Source: Actinophytocola gossypii (lineage in GTDB: Bacteria > Actinomycetota > Actinomycetes > Mycobacteriales > Pseudonocardiaceae). Taken from it: a stretch of DNA of 64,000 nt. The notes under the pieces are model-generated. The model worked only from the letters and a program-made list of their open reading frames with translations, searched no databases and was not told the origin of the DNA. Location of the stretch: the NCBI RefSeq assembly GCF_025165815.1, contig NZ_JAFFZE010000012.1, positions 1 through 64,000 of the forward strand, given 5' to 3'. Shown piece by piece: positions 49,798 through 58,212 of this stretch; positions within the stretch are counted from its first letter, which is position 1; each line of letters opens with the position of its first letter. Made by a program: the position numbers and the translations under genes.

Positions 49798-49828
49798 AGA
49801 TGAAGGATTTCTCATCCCCGGTTCATGG
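49798..49828 (+). promoter_or_regulatory. candidate response-regulator box 1
   Basis: GATGAAGG, a few bases, TCTCATCC, then GGTTCATG precede the Asp-tail gene. Nearly the same pattern recurs at 52318-52347. Tandem TTCxCAT/TTCATG half-sites suit an OmpR-type regulator, most simply the one encoded at 51646-52308. Confidence 0.55.
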
Positions 49829-49860
49829 GCGGCCGCCCGACCGGCCTGAATAGTGGTGAC

Positions 49861-50199
49861 ATGCGGTTCACCAGCCGGACGGCGGTGCTGGCGGCGGCGC
49901 TCGTGCTGCCGCTGGGTGCCGTCCTGGCCACCTTCGCCCTCACCGCCGATCCGCCGACACCGCGGGTGCCGAACGTCGTCGAGATCGGTGAGGGAGCGGT
50001 GAGCGGCTCGGCGGAGACCTCGACCGAGACCACCCCGACACCCTCACCCACCACGACGACCACGACCCGGGCACCGGCGCCGCCGCCGGCCCGGCCGCCG
50101 CGCACGGAGGTCGTACCGCCCCCACCGGTCGTCGACGACGATGACGACGACGACGATGGTGACGACGACGACGATGACGACGATGACGACGACGACTGA
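49861..50199 (+). CDS. small exported protein with Asp-rich C-terminal tail
   Basis: The 112-residue product has a membrane or signal segment (about residues 7-28), a Thr/Pro-rich linker (TPTPSPTTTTTTRAPAPPPARPP) and a C-terminus of 20 aspartates broken by one glycine. The tail could bind Ca2+ or other cations at the cell surface. It is the first gene of the two-component cluster and overlaps the kinase gene, so it may be a ligand-sensing accessory of the kinase. No family is recognised. The ATG at 49861 lies close to a TGAATAGT element, as in leaderless genes. Confidence 0.75.
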   Translation: MRFTSRTAVLAAALVLPLGAVLATFALTADPPTPRVPNVVEIGEGAVSGSAETSTETTPTPSPTTTTTTRAPAPPPARPPRTEVVPPPPVVDDDDDDDDGDDDDDDDDDDDD

Positions 50200-51649
50200 G
50201 CGGGTCACGCCGGTCGGGCCGGCGCCCCCGGCTCCCCCGGAGCGGCGCACGCGGGGCGTGCCGGCACGGGTACTGATCATGTGCTGGCTGCTGGTGCTGA
50301 TGACCGTGGTGCTCGTCGCGGTCTGCCTGATCACCCGCAACCTGCTGCGCCAGGAGGCGTTCTCCGACGCCACCGCCGCCCTCGAGCAGGAGGCGCTGGA
50401 GTACCACGAGGTCGCCCGAACCGGGGTCGACCAGACCACCCGGCAGCCGTTCCCCACCGTGAACGCCCTGCTGGAGAACCACGTCCGGATGCAGTACCCG
50501 GACGACGACGAGGTCATCTTCGGCTGGATCGAGGGCGGCGGTTACCTGCACCAGGCCCGTACCGGCCCGATCCCGCTCAACCGACACCAGGACATCACCG
50601 ACACGATCATCGCCTCACCGGCGTCGGCCGGGGTGGTGTCGACCCCCGCCGGCGACATGCAGTGGATCAAGGTCGTGACCACCGCGCCCGACGGTGGGCG
50701 CGGCGCCTACGTCGTCGGCTACCTCATCGACCGGGACCTCGCCGAGATCGACGCGACGATCCGCACGCTCGCGCTGGTGTCGCTGCTCGGCCTGGTGTTC
50801 GCCGGTGGCGCGGCCTGGGTGGTCGCCGGGCAGATCCTGGCGCCGGTCCGGCTGGTGCGGCAGGCCGCCGCCGAGATCACCGAACGCGACCTCACCAGCC
50901 GCATCCAGGTCGCCGGCAACGACGACATCGCCGCGCTGTCCGAGCAGTTCAACGCGATGCTCGACCGGCTGGAGCAGGCGTTCGCCACCCAGCGGGAGTT
51001 CCTCGACGACGCGAGCCACGAGCTGCGCACGCCGATCACGATCGTGCGCGGGCACCTGGAGCTGATGGACCCCGCCGGCGGCGACCCGGCCGAGCGGGCC
51101 GAGGTGGTGCGGCTGTGCACCGACGAGTTGGACCGGATGAGCCGGATCGTGGACGACCTGCTGCTGCTGGCGAAGGCCGAGCGCCCGGACTTCGTGCGGC
51201 CGGAGCCGGTGGAGCTGGCCGAGCTGACCAGCGACGTCGACGCGAAGGTGCGCGCACTCGGCGACCGGGACTGGCGGCTGGACGGCATCGGGGTCGGCAT
51301 CGTGCACGTCGACCCGCAGCGGGTCACCCAGGCTGTGGTGCAGCTCGCGCACAACGCCGTGCAGCACACCGAACCGGGTGACCGGATCATGGTCGGTTCC
51401 GCCCGGACCGGTGGTCTCGTGTCCTTCTGGGTGACCGACACCGGGCCCGGCGTGACCCCCGCGGAGATCGAGGTGATCTTCGACCGGTTCACCCGCGCCG
51501 GCGGCGGCCGGGGACACCGCGGCGGCGCCGGCCTCGGCCTGGCGATCGTCCGCGCCATCGCCGAGGCACACCACGGAACGGTGAAGGTGCTGTCGACCCC
51601 TGGCTCGGGGGCGACGTTCGGAATCGAGTTGCCAGGGGGTGCACGGTGA
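50183..51649 (+). CDS. two-component sensor histidine kinase
   Basis: The 488-residue kinase has a membrane helix near residue 30 (RVLIMCWLLVLMTVVLVAVCL), an extracytoplasmic sensor region, a second helix, a HAMP domain and an H-box with His279 (DDASHELRTPIT). The N-box (LAHNAVQHTEPGD) and G-boxes (DTGPGV, GGAGLGLAIVRAI) follow. Its N-terminus is a Thr/Met repeat read from the same GAC-rich DNA that encodes the Asp tail of the previous gene, so several ATG starts (50141-50183) are possible. I take 50183. The order kinase then regulator is by GTGA overlap. Confidence 0.92.
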   Translation: MTTTTERVTPVGPAPPAPPERRTRGVPARVLIMCWLLVLMTVVLVAVCLITRNLLRQEAFSDATAALEQEALEYHEVARTGVDQTTRQPFPTVNALLENHVRMQYPDDDEVIFGWIEGGGYLHQARTGPIPLNRHQDITDTIIASPASAGVVSTPAGDMQWIKVVTTAPDGGRGAYVVGYLIDRDLAEIDATIRTLALVSLLGLVFAGGAAWVVAGQILAPVRLVRQAAAEITERDLTSRIQVAGNDDIAALSEQFNAMLDRLEQAFATQREFLDDASHELRTPITIVRGHLELMDPAGGDPAERAEVVRLCTDELDRMSRIVDDLLLLAKAERPDFVRPEPVELAELTSDVDAKVRALGDRDWRLDGIGVGIVHVDPQRVTQAVVQLAHNAVQHTEPGDRIMVGSARTGGLVSFWVTDTGPGVTPAEIEVIFDRFTRAGGGRGHRGGAGLGLAIVRAIAEAHHGTVKVLSTPGSGATFGIELPGGAR

Positions 51650-52308
51650 ACCGGATCCTGATCGTGGAGGACGAGGAGCGGATCGCGTCGTTCGTCCGCA
51701 AGGGACTGTCGGCGAACGGGTTCTCGACGACGGTCATCGGGAACGGGCGCGGTGCCGTGGACTTCGCCATGACGGGTGACTTCGACCTGCTGGTGCTCGA
51801 CCTCGGGCTCCCGGACATGGACGGGTTCGCCGTGCTGCGCAGGCTGCGCGAGGCCAGGGTGACGACACCGGTGATCATCCTGACCGCCCGGGACTCGGTG
51901 CGGGACACGGTGGCCGGGCTGGAGGGCGGCGCGGACGACTACGTCACCAAGCCGTTCCGGTTCGAGGAACTGCTGGCCCGGATCCGGTTGCGGCTGCGCG
52001 GTACCGACAACGCCCCGGAGGCCACCGTGCTCAGTTCCGGTGCCGTGTCGCTGGACCTGCGCACCCGCCGGGCGAAGGTCGGCGACCGGACGGTGGACCT
52101 CACCGCGCGCGAGTTCACCCTGCTGGAACTGTTCCTGCGCCATCCGGGACAGGTGCTGTCCCGCGAGCAGATCCTGTCGCACGTCTGGGGCTACGACTTC
52201 GACCCCGGCTCGAACATCGTCGACGTCTACGTCCGCGCCCTGCGCCGCAAGCTCGGCCACGACAGCGTCTCCACCATCCGCGGCATGGGCTACGCCGTCG
52301 GCCGCTGA
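51646..52308 (+). CDS. two-component response regulator, OmpR family
   Basis: The 220-residue regulator has a receiver domain with phospho-acceptor Asp52 (LLVLDLGLPDMDG), conserved Thr (IILTAR) and Lys (YVTKPF), and a C-terminal winged helix (LLELFLRHPGQVLSREQIL to VDVYVRALRRKLG). GTG 51646 overlaps the kinase stop. The matching boxes at 49798 and 52318 are its probable binding sites. Confidence 0.95.
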   Translation: MNRILIVEDEERIASFVRKGLSANGFSTTVIGNGRGAVDFAMTGDFDLLVLDLGLPDMDGFAVLRRLREARVTTPVIILTARDSVRDTVAGLEGGADDYVTKPFRFEELLARIRLRLRGTDNAPEATVLSSGAVSLDLRTRRAKVGDRTVDLTAREFTLLELFLRHPGQVLSREQILSHVWGYDFDPGSNIVDVYVRALRRKLGHDSVSTIRGMGYAVGR

Positions 52309-52317
52309 CGCACTCCC

Positions 52318-52347
52318 GGATGAAGGTCCCTTCACATCCGGCTCAGG
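52318..52347 (+). promoter_or_regulatory. candidate response-regulator box 2
   Basis: GGATGAAGG-TCC-CTTCACATCC followed by GGCTCAGG is very close to the box at 49798-49828. It lies between the regulator stop and the phosphotransferase gene, with a TCTGGTAGT element just before the GTG start. Confidence 0.55.
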
Positions 52348-52380
52348 TGGGGGTCATTCGCGGGCCGCACTCTGGTAGTC

Positions 52381-53547
52381 GTGAGAGCGAACGAGGACCT
52401 GCTGACCGGGCCGGACGCCGGTGACCTGGTCGCCGCCGTGTTGGCGCAGGCGGGTGGGCGACCGCTGGAGTGGAGCGTCGGGCAGGTCGACCACCAGCCG
52501 GGCGGGCGGACCACCGTCTCCTACGACGTGCGCGTCGTGTGGACGGACGGGTCGGTCACCGACGAGGCGCTCGGGGCCGCGTCCGGGCGGCTGCCCGACG
52601 GGGTCACCCGGCTGACCGACGGCGACACCGAGGTCGGCATGTGGCGGTTCCCGTTCGACCCGGACCTTCCCGGGCTGCCGGCCGCGTGCGACCCCGCTCG
52701 GATGAGCCGGCTCGTCGCCGGGCTCGGGCTGGGCGGGCCGGCGACCCTGCGGGTGCGCACGTACCGGCCGCGGCGGCGTGCGGTCGTCGAGGTCGCGACC
52801 CCGGGCGGGACGGTGTTCGTCAAGGTGCTGCGGCCGGAGAAGGTACGCGCGCTGTACGAGCTGCACCGGGTCGCCGCCGACGCGGGCTGCCCGACGCCGG
52901 CACCGCTGGGTTGGACCGAGGACGGGCTGCTGGTGCTCGCCGGACTCGCCGGGCGCACGCTGCGTGACCGGCTGCTGGCCGGTGAGCGGGTCGACCTCGA
53001 CCCGGACGACGTGGTCGCGGTGCTCGACGGGTTGCCGGCGGAGCTCGCCGCCGGGGAGCGGCGGGTGACGTGGGGGCAGAAGGCGGGCCACTACGCGGAG
53101 GTGCTCGCCACGTCGGTGCCGGCGCTCGGCGCGCGGGCGCGGGCGGTGGCCGCCGCCGTCGACCACGACACGCCGGAGGGCCCGGACGTGCCGGTGCACG
53201 GCGACTTCTACGAGGCGCAGCTGATGGTCACCGGCGGGCGGGTCAGCGGCGTGCTGGACATCGACACCGCCGGACGGGGCGAGCGGCTCGACGACGCCGG
53301 CTGTCTGCTCGCGCACCTGGCGGTGCTCGCCCTGATGTACCCGGACCACGCGGGTGAGCTGAACCGGCTGCGGCTGTCGCTGCACCGGCGGTTCGTTCGC
53401 GACCTCGACCCCGCGGCGCTCGCCAGGCGTACCGCCGCGGTCGTGCTGTCCCTGGCCACCGGTCCGCACCGGGTGCAGGAGCCGGGGTGGCAGCAGGCAA
53501 CCACCGACCGGGTGGAGCTGGCCGAACGCTGGCTCCACCGTGGATAG
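52381..53547 (+). CDS. aminoglycoside-phosphotransferase-fold protein
   Basis: The 388-residue protein has a kinase-like fold. An N-terminal lobe (RTYRPRRRAVVEV, VFVKVLRPEKV) precedes the catalytic-loop-like segment VPVHGDFYEAQLMV and the metal-binding-like LDIDTAGRG. Relatives phosphorylate small molecules or confer drug resistance; the substrate is unknown. The first 110 residues form an extra domain. The start at GTG 52381 lies close to the -10-like element, suggesting a leaderless message. The repeat-protein gene follows 16 bp later. Confidence 0.8.
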   Translation: MRANEDLLTGPDAGDLVAAVLAQAGGRPLEWSVGQVDHQPGGRTTVSYDVRVVWTDGSVTDEALGAASGRLPDGVTRLTDGDTEVGMWRFPFDPDLPGLPAACDPARMSRLVAGLGLGGPATLRVRTYRPRRRAVVEVATPGGTVFVKVLRPEKVRALYELHRVAADAGCPTPAPLGWTEDGLLVLAGLAGRTLRDRLLAGERVDLDPDDVVAVLDGLPAELAAGERRVTWGQKAGHYAEVLATSVPALGARARAVAAAVDHDTPEGPDVPVHGDFYEAQLMVTGGRVSGVLDIDTAGRGERLDDAGCLLAHLAVLALMYPDHAGELNRLRLSLHRRFVRDLDPAALARRTAAVVLSLATGPHRVQEPGWQQATTDRVELAERWLHRG

Positions 53548-53563
53548 AAGGAGGAACGGAAGA

Positions 53564-54058
53564 ATGAACATCAAGCGCACCTGGATCGTGGCCAGCGCGA
53601 CGATCGCCGTGGCCGGCTTCGCCGGCGCGGGGATCGCGATGGCCAATGACGACGTGGAGCTGCGGGACCGACAGCCGGTGCCGGCGGTGGAGCTGAAGGG
53701 CGACACCGGCGGGATGAAGGCCGACACCGCCAACGCGTCGGCCCAGTCGGCCAACTCCGCCCGGTCGGCCCAGTCGGCGAACTCGGCCCGGTCGGCGGAC
53801 TCGCCCGATGGTCCGAGGCACAAGGCGCCGGCGGCCGACTCCGGCAACAGCCCGGCCCCGGCGAAGATCGCGCCCGCGCCGGTGCGGGTGGCGGACTCGG
53901 GCAACAGCCCGGCCGCCGCGTCGGCCAACAGCCCCGCGCCGGCGCCGGTCCGCGGTGGCGCGGACTCCGGCAACAGCCCGGCGCCCCCGCGCGGCGCGGA
54001 CTCCGCCAACAGCGGCAACAGCGCCAACAGCGGCGCGAGCGCGAACAGCCCCGACTAG
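53564..54058 (+). CDS. exported Ser/Asn/Ala-rich repeat protein
   Basis: The 164-residue protein has a signal peptide (about residues 1-27, ending IAMAN). Low-complexity repeats follow: SANSARSAQ units, then four copies of a DSGNSPA-like motif with Pro/Ala spacers, ending in SANSGNSANS. No known domain is seen. It is probably an extended, disordered surface protein. GGAGGAA precedes the ATG. It is the last gene of the two-component cluster. Confidence 0.75.
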   Translation: MNIKRTWIVASATIAVAGFAGAGIAMANDDVELRDRQPVPAVELKGDTGGMKADTANASAQSANSARSAQSANSARSADSPDGPRHKAPAADSGNSPAPAKIAPAPVRVADSGNSPAAASANSPAPAPVRGGADSGNSPAPPRGADSANSGNSANSGASANSPD

Positions 54059-54837: not shown

Positions 54838-57111
54838 CTAGGCCGCGGTCGCGACTGGTTCACGGGTTTCCCGGTCGGGCACCGGTGGCGTCGTGTCGTT
54901 GCCGGGCAGGGTACGGAAAGCGCGTAGGCGCAGGCTGTTGGTGACCACGAAGACCGAGCTGAAGGCCATCACCGCGCCGGCGAGCATGGGGTTCAGCAGG
55001 CCGGCGGCGGCCAGTGGGATCGTGGCCACGTTGTAGGCGAACGCCCAGAACAGGTTTCCCCGGATGGTGTTCAGGGTGCGGCGGGAGAGGCGGATCGCGT
55101 CGGCCGCCGCCCGGAGGTCGCCTCGGGTCAGGGTGAGGTCGCTGGCCTCGATGGCCACGTCGGTGCCGGTGCCCATCGCGAGGCCGAGGTCGGCCTGGGT
55201 GAGGGCGGCCGCGTCGTTGACGCCGTCGCCGACCATGGCCACCACGCGGCCGGACTCCTGGAGGCGGCGGACCTCGGAGACCTTGTCGGCGGGGAGGACG
55301 CCGGCGATCACCTCGTCGATGCCGACCTCGTCGGCGACGGCGCGGGCGGCGGCCTCGTTGTCGCCGGTCAGCATGACCGGGGTCAGGCCGAGGGCGCGCA
55401 GCTGGCGCACGGCCTCGGCGCTGGTCGGCTTCACCGTGTCGGCCACCACCAGCAGGCCCCGCACCTCGCCGTCCCAGGCGACGGCCACGGCGGTGTGGCC
55501 GCGGGACTCCGCCGCCGACCGGGCCTCGGCCAGCGGGGGCGGGAGGTCCGGCAGCCAGGAGTGGCCGGCCCGGCCGGCGGCGACCTCGACGTCGTCGACG
55601 GTGCCGCGCACGCCGAGGCCGGCGACGGACTGGAACGACGCGACGGCGGGCAGCGGGCCGGACTCGGCCGCCGCGGTCGCGATGGCGCGGGCGATCGGGT
55701 GTTCGGAGGCGTCCTCCAGCGCACCGGCCAGGCGCAGCAGGCGTTGGCGGGGCACGCCGGGCGCCGGCACGACGTCCACAAGGGACATCTCGCCCGCGGT
55801 GACGGTGCCGGTCTTGTCCAGCACCACGGTGTCCACCCGGCGGGTCGACTCCAGTACCTCAGGGCCGCGGATCAGGATGCCGAGTTGCGCGCCCCGGCCG
55901 GTACCGACGAGCAGCGCGGTCGGCGTCGCGAGGCCGAGCGCGCACGGGCACGCGATGATCAGCACCGCGACGGCCGCGGTGAACGCCGACGCGGCCGACG
56001 CCCCGGTACCGAGCCAGAAGCCGAGCACGGCAAGGGAAAGCCCGATCACCACCGGGACGAACACCGCCGACACCCGGTCGGCCAGCCGCTGCACGCGCGC
56101 CTTGCCGGTCTGCGCCTGCTCCACCAGCTCAGCCATCCGCGCGAGCTGGGTGTCCGCGCCGACCCGGGTCGCCCGAACGACCAGGCGGCCGCCGGCGTTC
56201 ACGGTCGCGCCGACCACCCGGTCGCCCGGGCCGACCTCGACCGGCACCGACTCGCCGGTAAGCATGCTCTCGTCCACCGCGGACGAGCCGTCCTCGACCT
56301 CGCCGTCGGTGGCGACCTTCTCCCCCGGCCGCACCACGAACCGGTCGCCGACGGCCAGGCTCTCCACCGGGATCCTGGTCTCGACGCCGTCCCGCAGTAC
56401 GGCGACGTCCTTGGCGCCCATCGACAGCAGCGCGCGCAGCGCCGATCCCGCCCGGGACTTGGCCCGCGCCTCGAAGTACCGGCCGGCCAGGATGAACGTG
56501 ATCACCCCGGCGGCGACCTCCAGGTAGATCGAGCCCTCGCCGCTGGTGCGCTCGATCGTCAGCCGGAACGGGTGGGTCATCCCGGGCATCCCGGCCGTCC
56601 CGAGGAACAGCGCGTACAGCGACCACGCGAACGCGGCCAGCGTGCCCATGGAGATCAGCGTGTCCATGGTGGCCGCGCCGTGCCGCAGGTTCGTCCACGC
56701 GGCCCGGTGGAACGGCAGTCCGCCCCACACCACGACCGGCGCGGCCAGCGTGAGCGACGCCCACTGCCAGTACTCGAACTGCAGCGCCGGCACCATGGCC
56801 ATCGCCACCACCGGCACCGCCAGTGCGAGGCTCACGAACAGCCTGGTGCGCAGGGTGCGCAGCCCCCGGTCCTCCGGTTCGTCGGCGGCGACCGGTGCCG
56901 GGGCGGGCGGGGCGGCGGTGTAACCGAGCTTCTCGACCACGGCCACCAGGTCCTCTGTGGACACCTCGGCGGTCGCGTTCACCCTGGCCCGCTCGGTGGC
57001 GTAGTTGACGGTCGCCTCGACACCGTCGAGCCGGTTCAGCTTCTTCTCGATGCGCGCGGCGCACGAGGCGCACGTCATCCCACCGATCACGAGCTCGACC
57101 CGATCCATCAT
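54838..57111 (-). CDS. copA: copper-exporting P-type ATPase
   Basis: The 757-residue membrane pump exports Cu+. An N-terminal heavy-metal domain has GGMTCASC (Cys14, Cys17), followed by eight predicted helices. The transmembrane metal site is CPCALG, the phosphorylation site is Asp432 in DKTGT, and SEHPIA, TGDN and GDGVNDA mark the ATP-binding domain. A C-terminal NSLRL marks the Cu+ subclass. The ATG overlaps the stop of the His-rich gene upstream. Confidence 0.96.
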
Positions 57112-58001
57112 CTCTCCTCGTGCGGCTCGGCGACCGCGGTGAACTCCGCGGTGCGCACCACGTCGCCGTGCTTGAAGTCCAGGTACAGCCGGTAGGTACC
57201 GGTACTGGGTACCTCGGTGTCGAAGGTGACACTCGGCCCGGCCGCGGCGCCATCGTGCGGGTGGACGTGCAGGTAGGCGAGGTCGCCCTGGCGGAGCGCG
57301 ACCAGATGCCCGTACGCGCCGAGGTAGGGCTGCAGGTCGGTGACCGGCACCCCGCCCTTGTCGACGGTGAGCGTGAGCCTGCTCGTCGTGCCCGCGTCGA
57401 GGTGGCCGGACAGGGTCACCCGGTAGCCGTCGACCTCGGCGGTCAGCGCCGGCGGCGGCATTGGCACCGGGCGGTAGTCGCCGGGCACCGGCACGTCGAC
57501 GCCGAGCGTGACCGGCTCGGTGCGGCCGGCCGGTACGAAGTCGGCGAACATCCGGTAGTCACCGGCGTCGCGCAGGTCAAGGGGAACGCGCCAGGTGCCG
57601 TCGGCGGACATCTCCGGGTGCACGTGCCGGAAGCCGGACAGGTCGCGGCGCGCCACGATCAGGTGCATCAGCTTGTCGTGGTTCGGGGTGAAGCGGGTGA
57701 CCGGATCGCCGGACTCGTCGAGGATCCGGAAGGCGAACCCGCGCGGATCGACCACCTCGAGGGTGTGGCCGTCCGCGGTGACCCGCAGCCCGGCCGGCAG
57801 CGGCTCGCCCTCGGCGTGCCCGCCGGACTCCCCGCCGGACTCCCCGCCGCCACCGTGGCCGTGCCCGGCGGCGGCGGGCTCGGCGGGGGAGTCGCCTGAG
57901 TCGATCGAGTCGACCGGCCCGAAGGCCTGCCCGATGCCGTAGGCGCCGGCGAACGCCACGGCCAGCACCAGCGCGAACCCGCCGAGTCTCGCCGCCGCCA
58001 T
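57108..58001 (-). CDS. exported His-rich protein of the copper operon
   Basis: The 297-residue product has an N-terminal membrane anchor or signal (residues 1-28) and a Gly/His/Glu-rich linker ([11 protein letters not shown]). Two related beta-rich halves each hold a His cluster ([22 protein letters not shown] and [19 protein letters not shown]). I infer binding of Cu ions outside the membrane and hand-off to or from CopA. Similar proteins accompany copA in other actinobacteria. It is coupled to copA by ATGA. Confidence 0.82.
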
Positions 58002-58002
58002 C

Positions 58003-58212
58003 TCAGCTCGCCAACTCGTAGCCGGCCTCGTCGACCGACGCGCGGACGTCGTCGGTGGACAGTGGGCCGTCGCTGGTGACGGTGACCCGCCCGGAGGACA
58101 GGTCGACCGAGACGTCGGTGACGCCGGCGATCCGGCCCACCTCCTCGCGCACCGCGCCGACGCAGTGTTCGCAGGTCATCCCGGTCACGGTGTAAGTAGC
58201 TGTCGTCGTCAT
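58003..58212 (-). CDS. copZ: copper chaperone, heavy-metal-associated domain
   Basis: The 69-residue single HMA domain has MTCEHC, which binds Cu+ and passes it to CopA. It opens the operon; the next gene starts one base after its stop. The ATG at 58212 is taken; an earlier GTG adds two residues. A -10-like TATAGT lies 11 bp upstream within a CsoR-type palindrome. Confidence 0.93.
   Translation of the reverse strand: MTTTATYTVTGMTCEHCVGAVREEVGRIAGVTDVSVDLSSGRVTVTSDGPLSTDDVRASVDEAGYELAS

Follow-up and report, generated by a model that had tools for sequence, protein, structure and literature searches.

This analysis concerns five neighbouring genes of Actinophytocola gossypii, all on the + strand at 49861-54058 of the window, by which we mean the whole 64,000-nucleotide stretch that was analysed (contig NZ_JAFFZE010000012.1, positions 1 to 64,000). 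In order, they encode an Asp-tail protein, a sensor histidine kinase, a response regulator, a phosphotransferase and a Ser/Asn repeat protein. A sequence-only reading of the window had described five such genes in one direction at this place, and all of them are present. It had let the system start at 49798, which lies one base before a 27-bp DNA element (49799-49825); the Asp-tail gene itself begins at 49861. Judged from sequence, all five are genuine genes, and together they have the look of a single regulatory unit.

The first gene (49861-50199, +) is an open reading frame (ORF) for an exported or anchored protein of 112 amino acids (aa), 20 of the last 29 residues being Asp. Its layout is an N-terminal hydrophobic segment, a motif near PxVPxxVRVG, a Pro/Thr linker, a Pro stretch and the Asp-rich tail. 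An alignment of 11 such proteins (window included) has in common the hydrophobic segment, the PxVPxxVRVG-like motif, the Pro stretch and the Asp tail. The kinase gene (50141-51649, +) has four candidate ATGs in frame 5' of its conserved part (50141, 50156, 50174 and 50183), all within the Asp-tail DNA, and the two genes therefore overlap. The poly-Thr N-terminus of the kinase comes from reading the (GAC)n tract in the other frame. This overlap probably does not explain the Asp tail, because in relatives such as L037, L039 and L042 the tail stops before the called kinase.

The kinase was recognised from Pfam, a structure model and its relatives. The model (mean predicted local distance difference test score, pLDDT, 81.9) shows a pair of long helices, presumed to span the membrane, that flank a domain of mixed helix and strand, followed by HAMP, HisKA and HATPase_c domains; the best 50 matches in a fold search with this model include mainly cytoplasmic kinase cores and WalK. 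The next gene (51646-52308, +) overlaps that of the kinase by 4 nt and encodes an OmpR/PhoB-type response regulator of 220 aa (Response_reg and Trans_reg_C in Pfam), which is 87% identical to its A. xinjiangensis counterpart. The domains of kinase and regulator are all over the Pfam cut-offs, as befits an OmpR/PhoB-type two-component system. Scores fall short of the cut-offs for the CzcRS/CopRS heavy-metal family (TIGR01386, 204.6 of 292.55 bits; TIGR01387, 218.8 of 279.2) and for MtrAB (NF040691, 176.4 of 450 bits; NF040689, 188.2 of 300).

The phosphotransferase gene (52381-53547, +), identified by Pfam, alignment and a structure model, encodes an APH-fold kinase of 388 aa (PF01636), hereafter the enzyme. 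The last gene (53564-54058, +) begins 16 nt past it and is an ORF with counterparts in relatives; it encodes an exported Ser/Thr (Ser/Asn) repeat protein of 164 aa, in which a signal or anchor segment (MNIKRTWIVASATIAVAGFAGAGIAMA) is followed by S-[A/P/G]-x triplets. Neither the Asp-tail protein nor the repeat protein belongs to a family in Pfam or NCBIfam, as far as example sequences were scanned.

What probably ties these genes together is the 27-bp element, GATGARR-N5-YTCATC-N5-YTCA, a pattern with TCA repeats at 11 bp that was found by comparing the upstream DNA of relatives. In the window, it precedes both the Asp-tail gene and the phosphotransferase gene. Element 1, a putative operator (GATGAAGGATTTCTCATCCCCGGTTCA; 49799-49825, +), has 0 mismatches to the common pattern and begins 62 nt 5' of the Asp-tail start codon, and Element 2, also a putative operator (GATGAAGGTCCCTTCACATCCGGCTCA; 52319-52345, +), has 2 mismatches and begins 62 nt 5' of the phosphotransferase start codon. 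The repeat gene of the window has no element of its own (best 7 mismatches).

Pattern scans are valid only for the mismatch numbers stated, and some sites have no assignable target. At ≤2 mismatches, the A. gossypii genome (7.38 Mb) holds three sites: a perfect one at 49799 and two with 2 mismatches, at 52319 and on contig 12, the last of which is probably accidental; the reversed pattern gives one. Twenty named genomes chosen for the enzyme contain 48 sites at ≤1 mismatch versus 1 for the reversed pattern, and 21 further genomes chosen for the kinase contain 41 versus 3, two of the 21 being without a site. Among 60 relatives, at least 53 have some match at ≤2 mismatches, many of these probably by chance.

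The position of the element relative to genes is also constrained. Of 174 distinct sites (≤1 mismatch) in the fetched loci, 112 are followed at 60-64 nt by a coding start, versus about 3 per position elsewhere, and there is a smaller peak at 53 nt; in different genomes and before different target genes the distance is mostly 61-63 nt. Alignment of the 112 sites gives TCA at offsets 13 and 24 and, with less regularity, at 35 (i.e., an 11-bp pitch), plus an inverted half, and A50/T54 mark out a -10-like element that lies some 8-12 nt 5' of the start codon. Of the two window sites, Element 2 has TCA at 13, 24 and 35, and Element 1 has it at 13 and 24. A direct-repeat pitch of 11 bp is typical of OmpR/PhoB family operators, and direct repeats with this pitch are present here at the candidate regulated promoters. 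A PhoB-like regulator activating leaderless promoters is probably the natural reading of this geometry.

The sensor core and the element occur together well beyond Actinophytocola. The kinase is found in 87 of 296 class members (profile A3, E ≤ 1e-90), and 30 class-wide kinase loci (window included; these are the best-scoring matches, not a random draw) were read for gene content. The element is present at ≤2 mismatches in 27 of the 30, and an Asp/Glu-rich exported ORF lies upstream of the kinase in 22.

The enzyme was followed in the same way. A named-genome search gave 109 enzyme relatives, for which 80 loci were kept and split by record title into 46 outside Actinomycetaceae (the first set) and 34 of Actinomycetaceae type (the second). 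In the first set, the element lies upstream of the enzyme in 29/46 loci at ≤2 mismatches and 40/46 at ≤3, with 0/46 for the reversed control. Directly downstream of the enzyme, 40/46 loci encode a small exported low-complexity protein, which we call the partner. A sequence rule, fitted to already seen examples, recognised 35 of these, and five were read by eye (L096, where the start was not resolved, L101, L103, L104 and L117). The six loci without a partner are L095 (Tamaricihabitans), three from Blastococcus (L126, L129 and L145), and L127 and L156, where the contig or readable stretch ends. The second set has the element before the enzyme in 0/34 loci at ≤2 mismatches and 1/34 at ≤3, and a partner in 0/34 by the rule and 1/34 by eye (L142). 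That locus, from Actinomycetales bacterium JB111, was put in the second set as 'Actinomycetales bacterium' and behaved like the first: a partner-like exported protein with a Thr/Pro/Arg-rich tail (L142:9294-9719) comes after the enzyme, with a site at 2 mismatches before it. Loci of the second set (e.g., L140, L147 and L157) often have the enzyme near an aminotransferase-like gene, as read from gene order, and the role of the enzyme there may reveal its ancestral substrate.

The kinase (same profile and threshold) is present in 24 of 27 tested first-set genomes and is missing from the three Blastococcus genomes, which are also those without a partner. For 18 of the other 19 first-set genomes it was seen in the locus or genome, the remaining one being L156. 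Seven of 19 tested second-set genomes have a kinase match, weaker than most first-set matches. Among the 60 relatives, counting the window genome, the kinase (E ≤ 1e-60) occurs in 18 and the enzyme (E ≤ 1e-20) in 6, all of which belong to the 18.

Gene order was compared using a simple GC-frame caller, so small genes and starts in relatives may be wrong; for example, it overlooked the Asp-tail gene of A. xinjiangensis, for which the ORF was located separately. That genome (G002) has all five genes in the window order, with the Asp-tail ORF (L034:6272-6601) 63 nt behind its site. Loci of Blastococcus, Geodermatophilus, Pseudonocardia, Saccharomonospora and Mycobacterium have the five genes linked in a convergent arrangement. 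The genes are not linked in A. algeriensis, Tamaricihabitans and others, yet the element is present. In A. algeriensis (G003), the enzyme and element lie among homologues of the window's neighbours and the kinases are on other contigs, and by its gene content the pair appears to be kept where the sensor lies elsewhere. The element is likewise retained before an unlinked phosphotransferase in G019 and G023 as well as G003 (on another contig or far from the kinase). Partner genes in Blastococcus, Pseudonocardia, Saccharomonospora and Mycobacterium relatives have their own site (≤2 mismatches) about 90-110 nt upstream.

The sequence-only reading had treated the five genes as one system and proposed conserved synteny as a check. 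The idea survives, in a refined form, in so far as the Asp-rich gene stands beside the kinase and the phosphotransferase and exported partner recur behind the element, and gives way where other operons take their place. Synteny is conserved in A. xinjiangensis and, convergently, in the five genera, but it is the element rather than the linkage that is kept elsewhere. We are highly confident that the genes form one regulon under this regulator, and the common element suggests that the two operons are co-expressed. That the APH-fold kinase and the repeat protein are functionally paired is very probable.

A 240-aa multi-helix membrane protein (L052:5977-6696, and upstream of the enzyme in L094 and L096; motifs DDHTSLHERLERIG and HAEELGEN) has no Pfam family. 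In A. algeriensis and a number of Prauserella genomes its gene adjoins that of the enzyme or the pair of enzyme and repeat genes. In Kibdelosporangium it is divergent from the enzyme across the common element. It is a possible further member of the regulon.

The enzyme scores 42.2 bits against PF01636 (gathering cut-off 23.2) and has an N-terminal domain of about 120 residues. K148, H273-G274-D275, D293 and D295 are invariant across 48 aligned sequences; we take the N-lobe Lys and the HGD...D.D residues to be catalytic, and on their invariance the enzyme should therefore be active. The best fold match of its model (mean pLDDT 94.5) is mycobacterial maltokinase (4u94; E 2.8e-10, template modelling scores 0.47/0.41). 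Its sequence matches in the PDB are antibiotic kinases, i.e., aminoglycoside and macrolide phosphotransferases, the best being APH(3')-VIII at 9.8e-9. The best NCBIfam match is LxmK of class V lanthipeptides (NF038156; 8.5e-7), yet it is partial (residues 108-199) and reaches 28.4 of 315 bits, far from membership in this class V lanthionine synthetase kinase family. LxmK acts on Ser/Thr of a precursor peptide. Neither the APH(3')-VIII nor the LxmK match amounts to family membership, and the maltokinase scores do not establish it. PF01636 is the only Pfam-A domain in the enzyme at E ≤ 0.01, with no CotH domain; CotH has a different fold from APH.

The partners share a short hydrophobic signal or anchor (e.g., TWKIVTFGAALTGLGAAGVG) followed by low-complexity sequence. 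In the window's repeat protein, 16 Ser/Thr pairs are at spacing 3 versus 4.1 expected, a count matched by 0 of 2000 shuffles. Across 36 partners, that of the window among them, Pro/Ala follows 70% of Ser/Thr (z 23.8 versus shuffles), and 54% of Ser/Thr have Asp/Glu/Asn at +2 (z 17.4). SPE[ST]ADSP occurs in 21 of the 36, and 32 have at least three Ser/Thr pairs at spacing 3, so a strict Ser/Thr triplet was dropped as a universal partner feature. Acidic residues were also dropped as an essential feature of the repeats, since the L264 partner has hardly any there. Most partners are acidic, with a net charge down to -36 (first 30 residues excluded), and the window protein is near neutral (net -2).

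Behind the element in other genomes stand other outputs: an SLC13/CitMHS permease with a glycerate kinase (Pfam), or DUF4956 with a VTC domain. The DUF4956 and VTC-domain (polyphosphate-polymerase-like) operons were seen at L259, L260, L261, L263 and L271, which cover another family and one genome of the window's family. In G149 and G360, the element precedes an exported protein ahead of a sortase, and in G287 an exported protein with SPKSPV repeats. G324 has the element 62 nt before an enzyme that is 38% identical to the window's over 394 residues, and a Ser-triplet exported protein follows; this partner is rich in Ser, Pro, Ala and Gln, and its repeats are almost free of acidic residues. In G278 and G112, the element precedes a PF00069 (Hanks) Ser/Thr kinase and an exported Thr/Arg/Asp repeat protein, as one operon in G278 and with two sites in G112.

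A tree of 46 kinases labelled by adjacent output has 13 label changes, where the least possible is 5; this is a count on one tree and not proof of 13 swaps. The tree is midpoint-rooted, has long branches (L127, L048, L267 and L257), and takes its labels from kinase-adjacent operons by gene-order reading, on which the L048 label also rests. The Hanks-kinase loci (G112 and G278), G324 and G287 form one group (100/99), and the Hanks pair alone has 74/27. In three loci of that four-member group, an exported Ser/Thr repeat protein goes with a kinase of one fold or the other, and from this comes our main argument that the kinase's partner would be the repeat protein.

Two further sites belong with the element as separate observations. 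In G005, of the same genus, a perfect element (L273:5955-5981) lies at the place syntenic to the window, flanked by a DUF1996 gene and a CopA/CopZ cluster. The kinase, regulator, enzyme and repeat genes were not recognised at that place, the genome has no kinase or enzyme match at the thresholds used, and the element is possibly the relic of a lost system. In G324, a perfect element also lies 62 nt before the gene of a PepSY-domain exported protein (L274:5027-5680), well away from the kinase locus.

We consider it fairly probable that the five genes are the form which an envelope-signalling system found throughout this class of actinobacteria takes in Actinophytocola, and this is our best overall explanation. 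The element would be the operator of the OmpR/PhoB-type regulator, near the -35 region. The extracytoplasmic domain of the kinase would detect an envelope signal with the Asp-tail protein as co-sensor, and the phosphorylated regulator would turn on its own operon and that of the phosphotransferase and repeat protein, probably from leaderless promoters. As an enzyme-partner pair, the APH-fold kinase would phosphorylate Ser/Thr of the repeats before export, which would give a phosphorylated surface polymer. We infer this phosphorylation because a Hanks kinase replaces the enzyme in two genomes; the non-random repeats and the LxmK match, although weak and partial, count on the same side. That the repeat protein is the direct substrate is a suggestion we make tentatively. 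More tentative still is a wider version, in which a polyanionic co-sensor system controls a secreted phosphoprotein circuit: a cytoplasmic kinase (mostly APH-fold, and Hanks-type in two genomes by what would be convergent replacement) would phosphorylate exported repeats, and other lineages would turn to different surface or phosphate chemistries with a sortase, a VTC/polyphosphate-type polymerase or a glycerate kinase instead. As for the signal, cation or cationic stress is a guess, and a rather doubtful one; the sequence-only reading had likewise supposed that the Asp tail could bind Ca2+ or cationic peptides.

Several observations weigh against this explanation. Element 2 has its two mismatches and Element 1 is without the third TCA. 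No Asp-rich ORF was found in 8 of the 30 kinase loci, including the sortase-operon genomes G149 and G360. Of the 46 kinases in the tree, 27 have other outputs alongside, and the sensor core therefore does not imply a phosphotransferase/repeat output. The enzyme is without a recognised partner in 33/34 and without the element in 33/34 Actinomycetaceae-type loci, so it can work without them. Tamaricihabitans has the enzyme, element and kinase but no recognised partner, and L113, L116, L118 and L160 have a partner but only a 4-6-mismatch element before the enzyme (in L113, L116 and L118, a good element lies before the partner instead). Among the partners, the short Mycobacterium proteins (L136, L163 and L165) and L102 are without clear Ser/Thr triplets, and those of L125 and L154 (Saccharomonospora) have TPDD-type rather than triplet repeats. 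The chief difficulty is one of topology: an export signal is recognised in the supposed substrate but not in the enzyme, and modification would therefore have to precede export. The maltokinase fold match and the antibiotic-kinase sequence matches also count on this side, and each leads to a rival.

The first rival is that the enzyme is a kinase of a sugar or small metabolite (maltokinase-like) acting under the same stress, with the repeat protein as an independent surface polymer, perhaps O-glycosylated, and co-regulation as the only bond between them. Maltokinase as best fold match favours this, as does the glycerate kinase that forms an alternative output behind the same element, and the Actinomycetaceae-type loci keep the enzyme mostly without a partner. 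Ser/Thr-Pro/Ala tracts are also typical of O-mannosylated proteins. It has to accommodate, however, the adjacency of partner and enzyme in 40/46 loci and the PF00069 protein kinase that replaces the enzyme beside another Thr-rich repeat protein. We regard it as unlikely, though worth keeping in view.

Alternatively, the repeat and Asp-tail proteins could both be extracytoplasmic feedback modulators of the kinase, as proposed for CseA, i.e., charged polymers that titrate the signal, one of them tuned by the phosphotransferase. Both proteins are small, exported and, in most relatives, acidic (partners to -36), and both lie behind the same element. A role as charged polymer fits poorly with the nearly neutral repeat protein of the window and with the G324 partner, which has hardly any acidic residues in its repeats, and no repeat protein was seen adjoining the SLC13 or VTC outputs (not searched genome-wide). 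We consider a feedback role for both proteins improbable.

The sequence-only reading had suggested that the phosphotransferase modifies the stressor, which corresponds to a resistance system in which the enzyme inactivates an antibiotic sensed by the kinase. The PF01636 fold and the PDB matches to aminoglycoside and macrolide phosphotransferases agree with this. Against it, the enzyme scores far under the NCBIfam cut-offs for antibiotic APH families (18.4 of 205 for APH(3'), and lower for the other models), and a recurrent exported partner, with a Hanks kinase in the enzyme's place in two genomes, fits drug inactivation poorly. On the NCBIfam scores and the recurrent partner, we judged antibiotic resistance very unlikely as the role of the enzyme, and the stressor-modification idea finds no support here. 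Least credible is that an ordinary two-component system stands by chance beside unrelated genes: most kinase-bearing relatives do lack the phosphotransferase (18/60 have the kinase, 6/60 the enzyme), but a rare common element at fixed spacing, kept when the genes are unlinked, and the presence of all 6 enzyme genomes among the 18 kinase genomes make this extremely unlikely.

Known systems resemble parts of this one. In the Bacillus spore coat, the Ser-rich repeats of CotB are polyphosphorylated by CotH (PMC7821199). CotH-CotB/CotG is the nearest analogue that we know of in how it works, since there too a kinase goes with surface proteins made of low-complexity, Ser-rich repeats. Here, the enzyme is of the APH fold (Hanks-type in two genomes) and not a CotH family member, the partner has an export signal, and a two-component system is in control. 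TcrXY of Mycobacterium tuberculosis (PMC10883919) is alike in being autoregulated and in having two small low-complexity (Pro-rich) proteins in its regulon. TcrX is described as binding a 7-bp mirror repeat in its own promoter, a site that was not found before the Pro-rich targets, whereas the element here consists of 11-bp direct repeats and, compared by description, has no such mirror repeat. The description there suggests that the regulator comes first and the kinase second, and its main text nowhere mentions a 'phosphotransferase' (PMC10883919). Identity with TcrXY was thus set aside on the described operator and gene order, by description rather than orthology. CseA-CseBC and AfsQ3-AfsQ1/Q2 of Streptomyces coelicolor (PMC9739842) share an accessory exported protein that is encoded together with, or works with, a two-component system and is proposed to act on the kinase; CseA and AfsQ3 are lipoproteins, and the Asp-tailed protein here is without a Pfam family. 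No description of this system or element was found in the open literature searched, a scope that leaves out subscription papers and preprints and so does not prove absence from print.

A copper-export-type cluster adjoins the five genes (54838-58179, −). It comprises a P-type ATPase with an HMA domain, a 297-aa protein and a CopZ-like 58-aa protein, and homologues of this cluster also lie near the enzyme in A. algeriensis.

Five adjacent genes, two of which encode proteins of no known family, thus become a probable regulon, defined by a precise DNA element that is found across a bacterial class, and a specific exported partner can be assigned to a so far orphan family of APH-fold kinases. If the enzyme does phosphorylate the repeat protein, this would be another bacterial route to secreted phosphoproteins, besides CotH. 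Even if it does not, the element allows the targets of this system to be searched for in other actinomycetes. Because its outputs change behind a constant sensor and element, the system is well suited to the study of how signalling circuits come to be rewired, and the likely DNA switch makes an undescribed signalling circuit testable.

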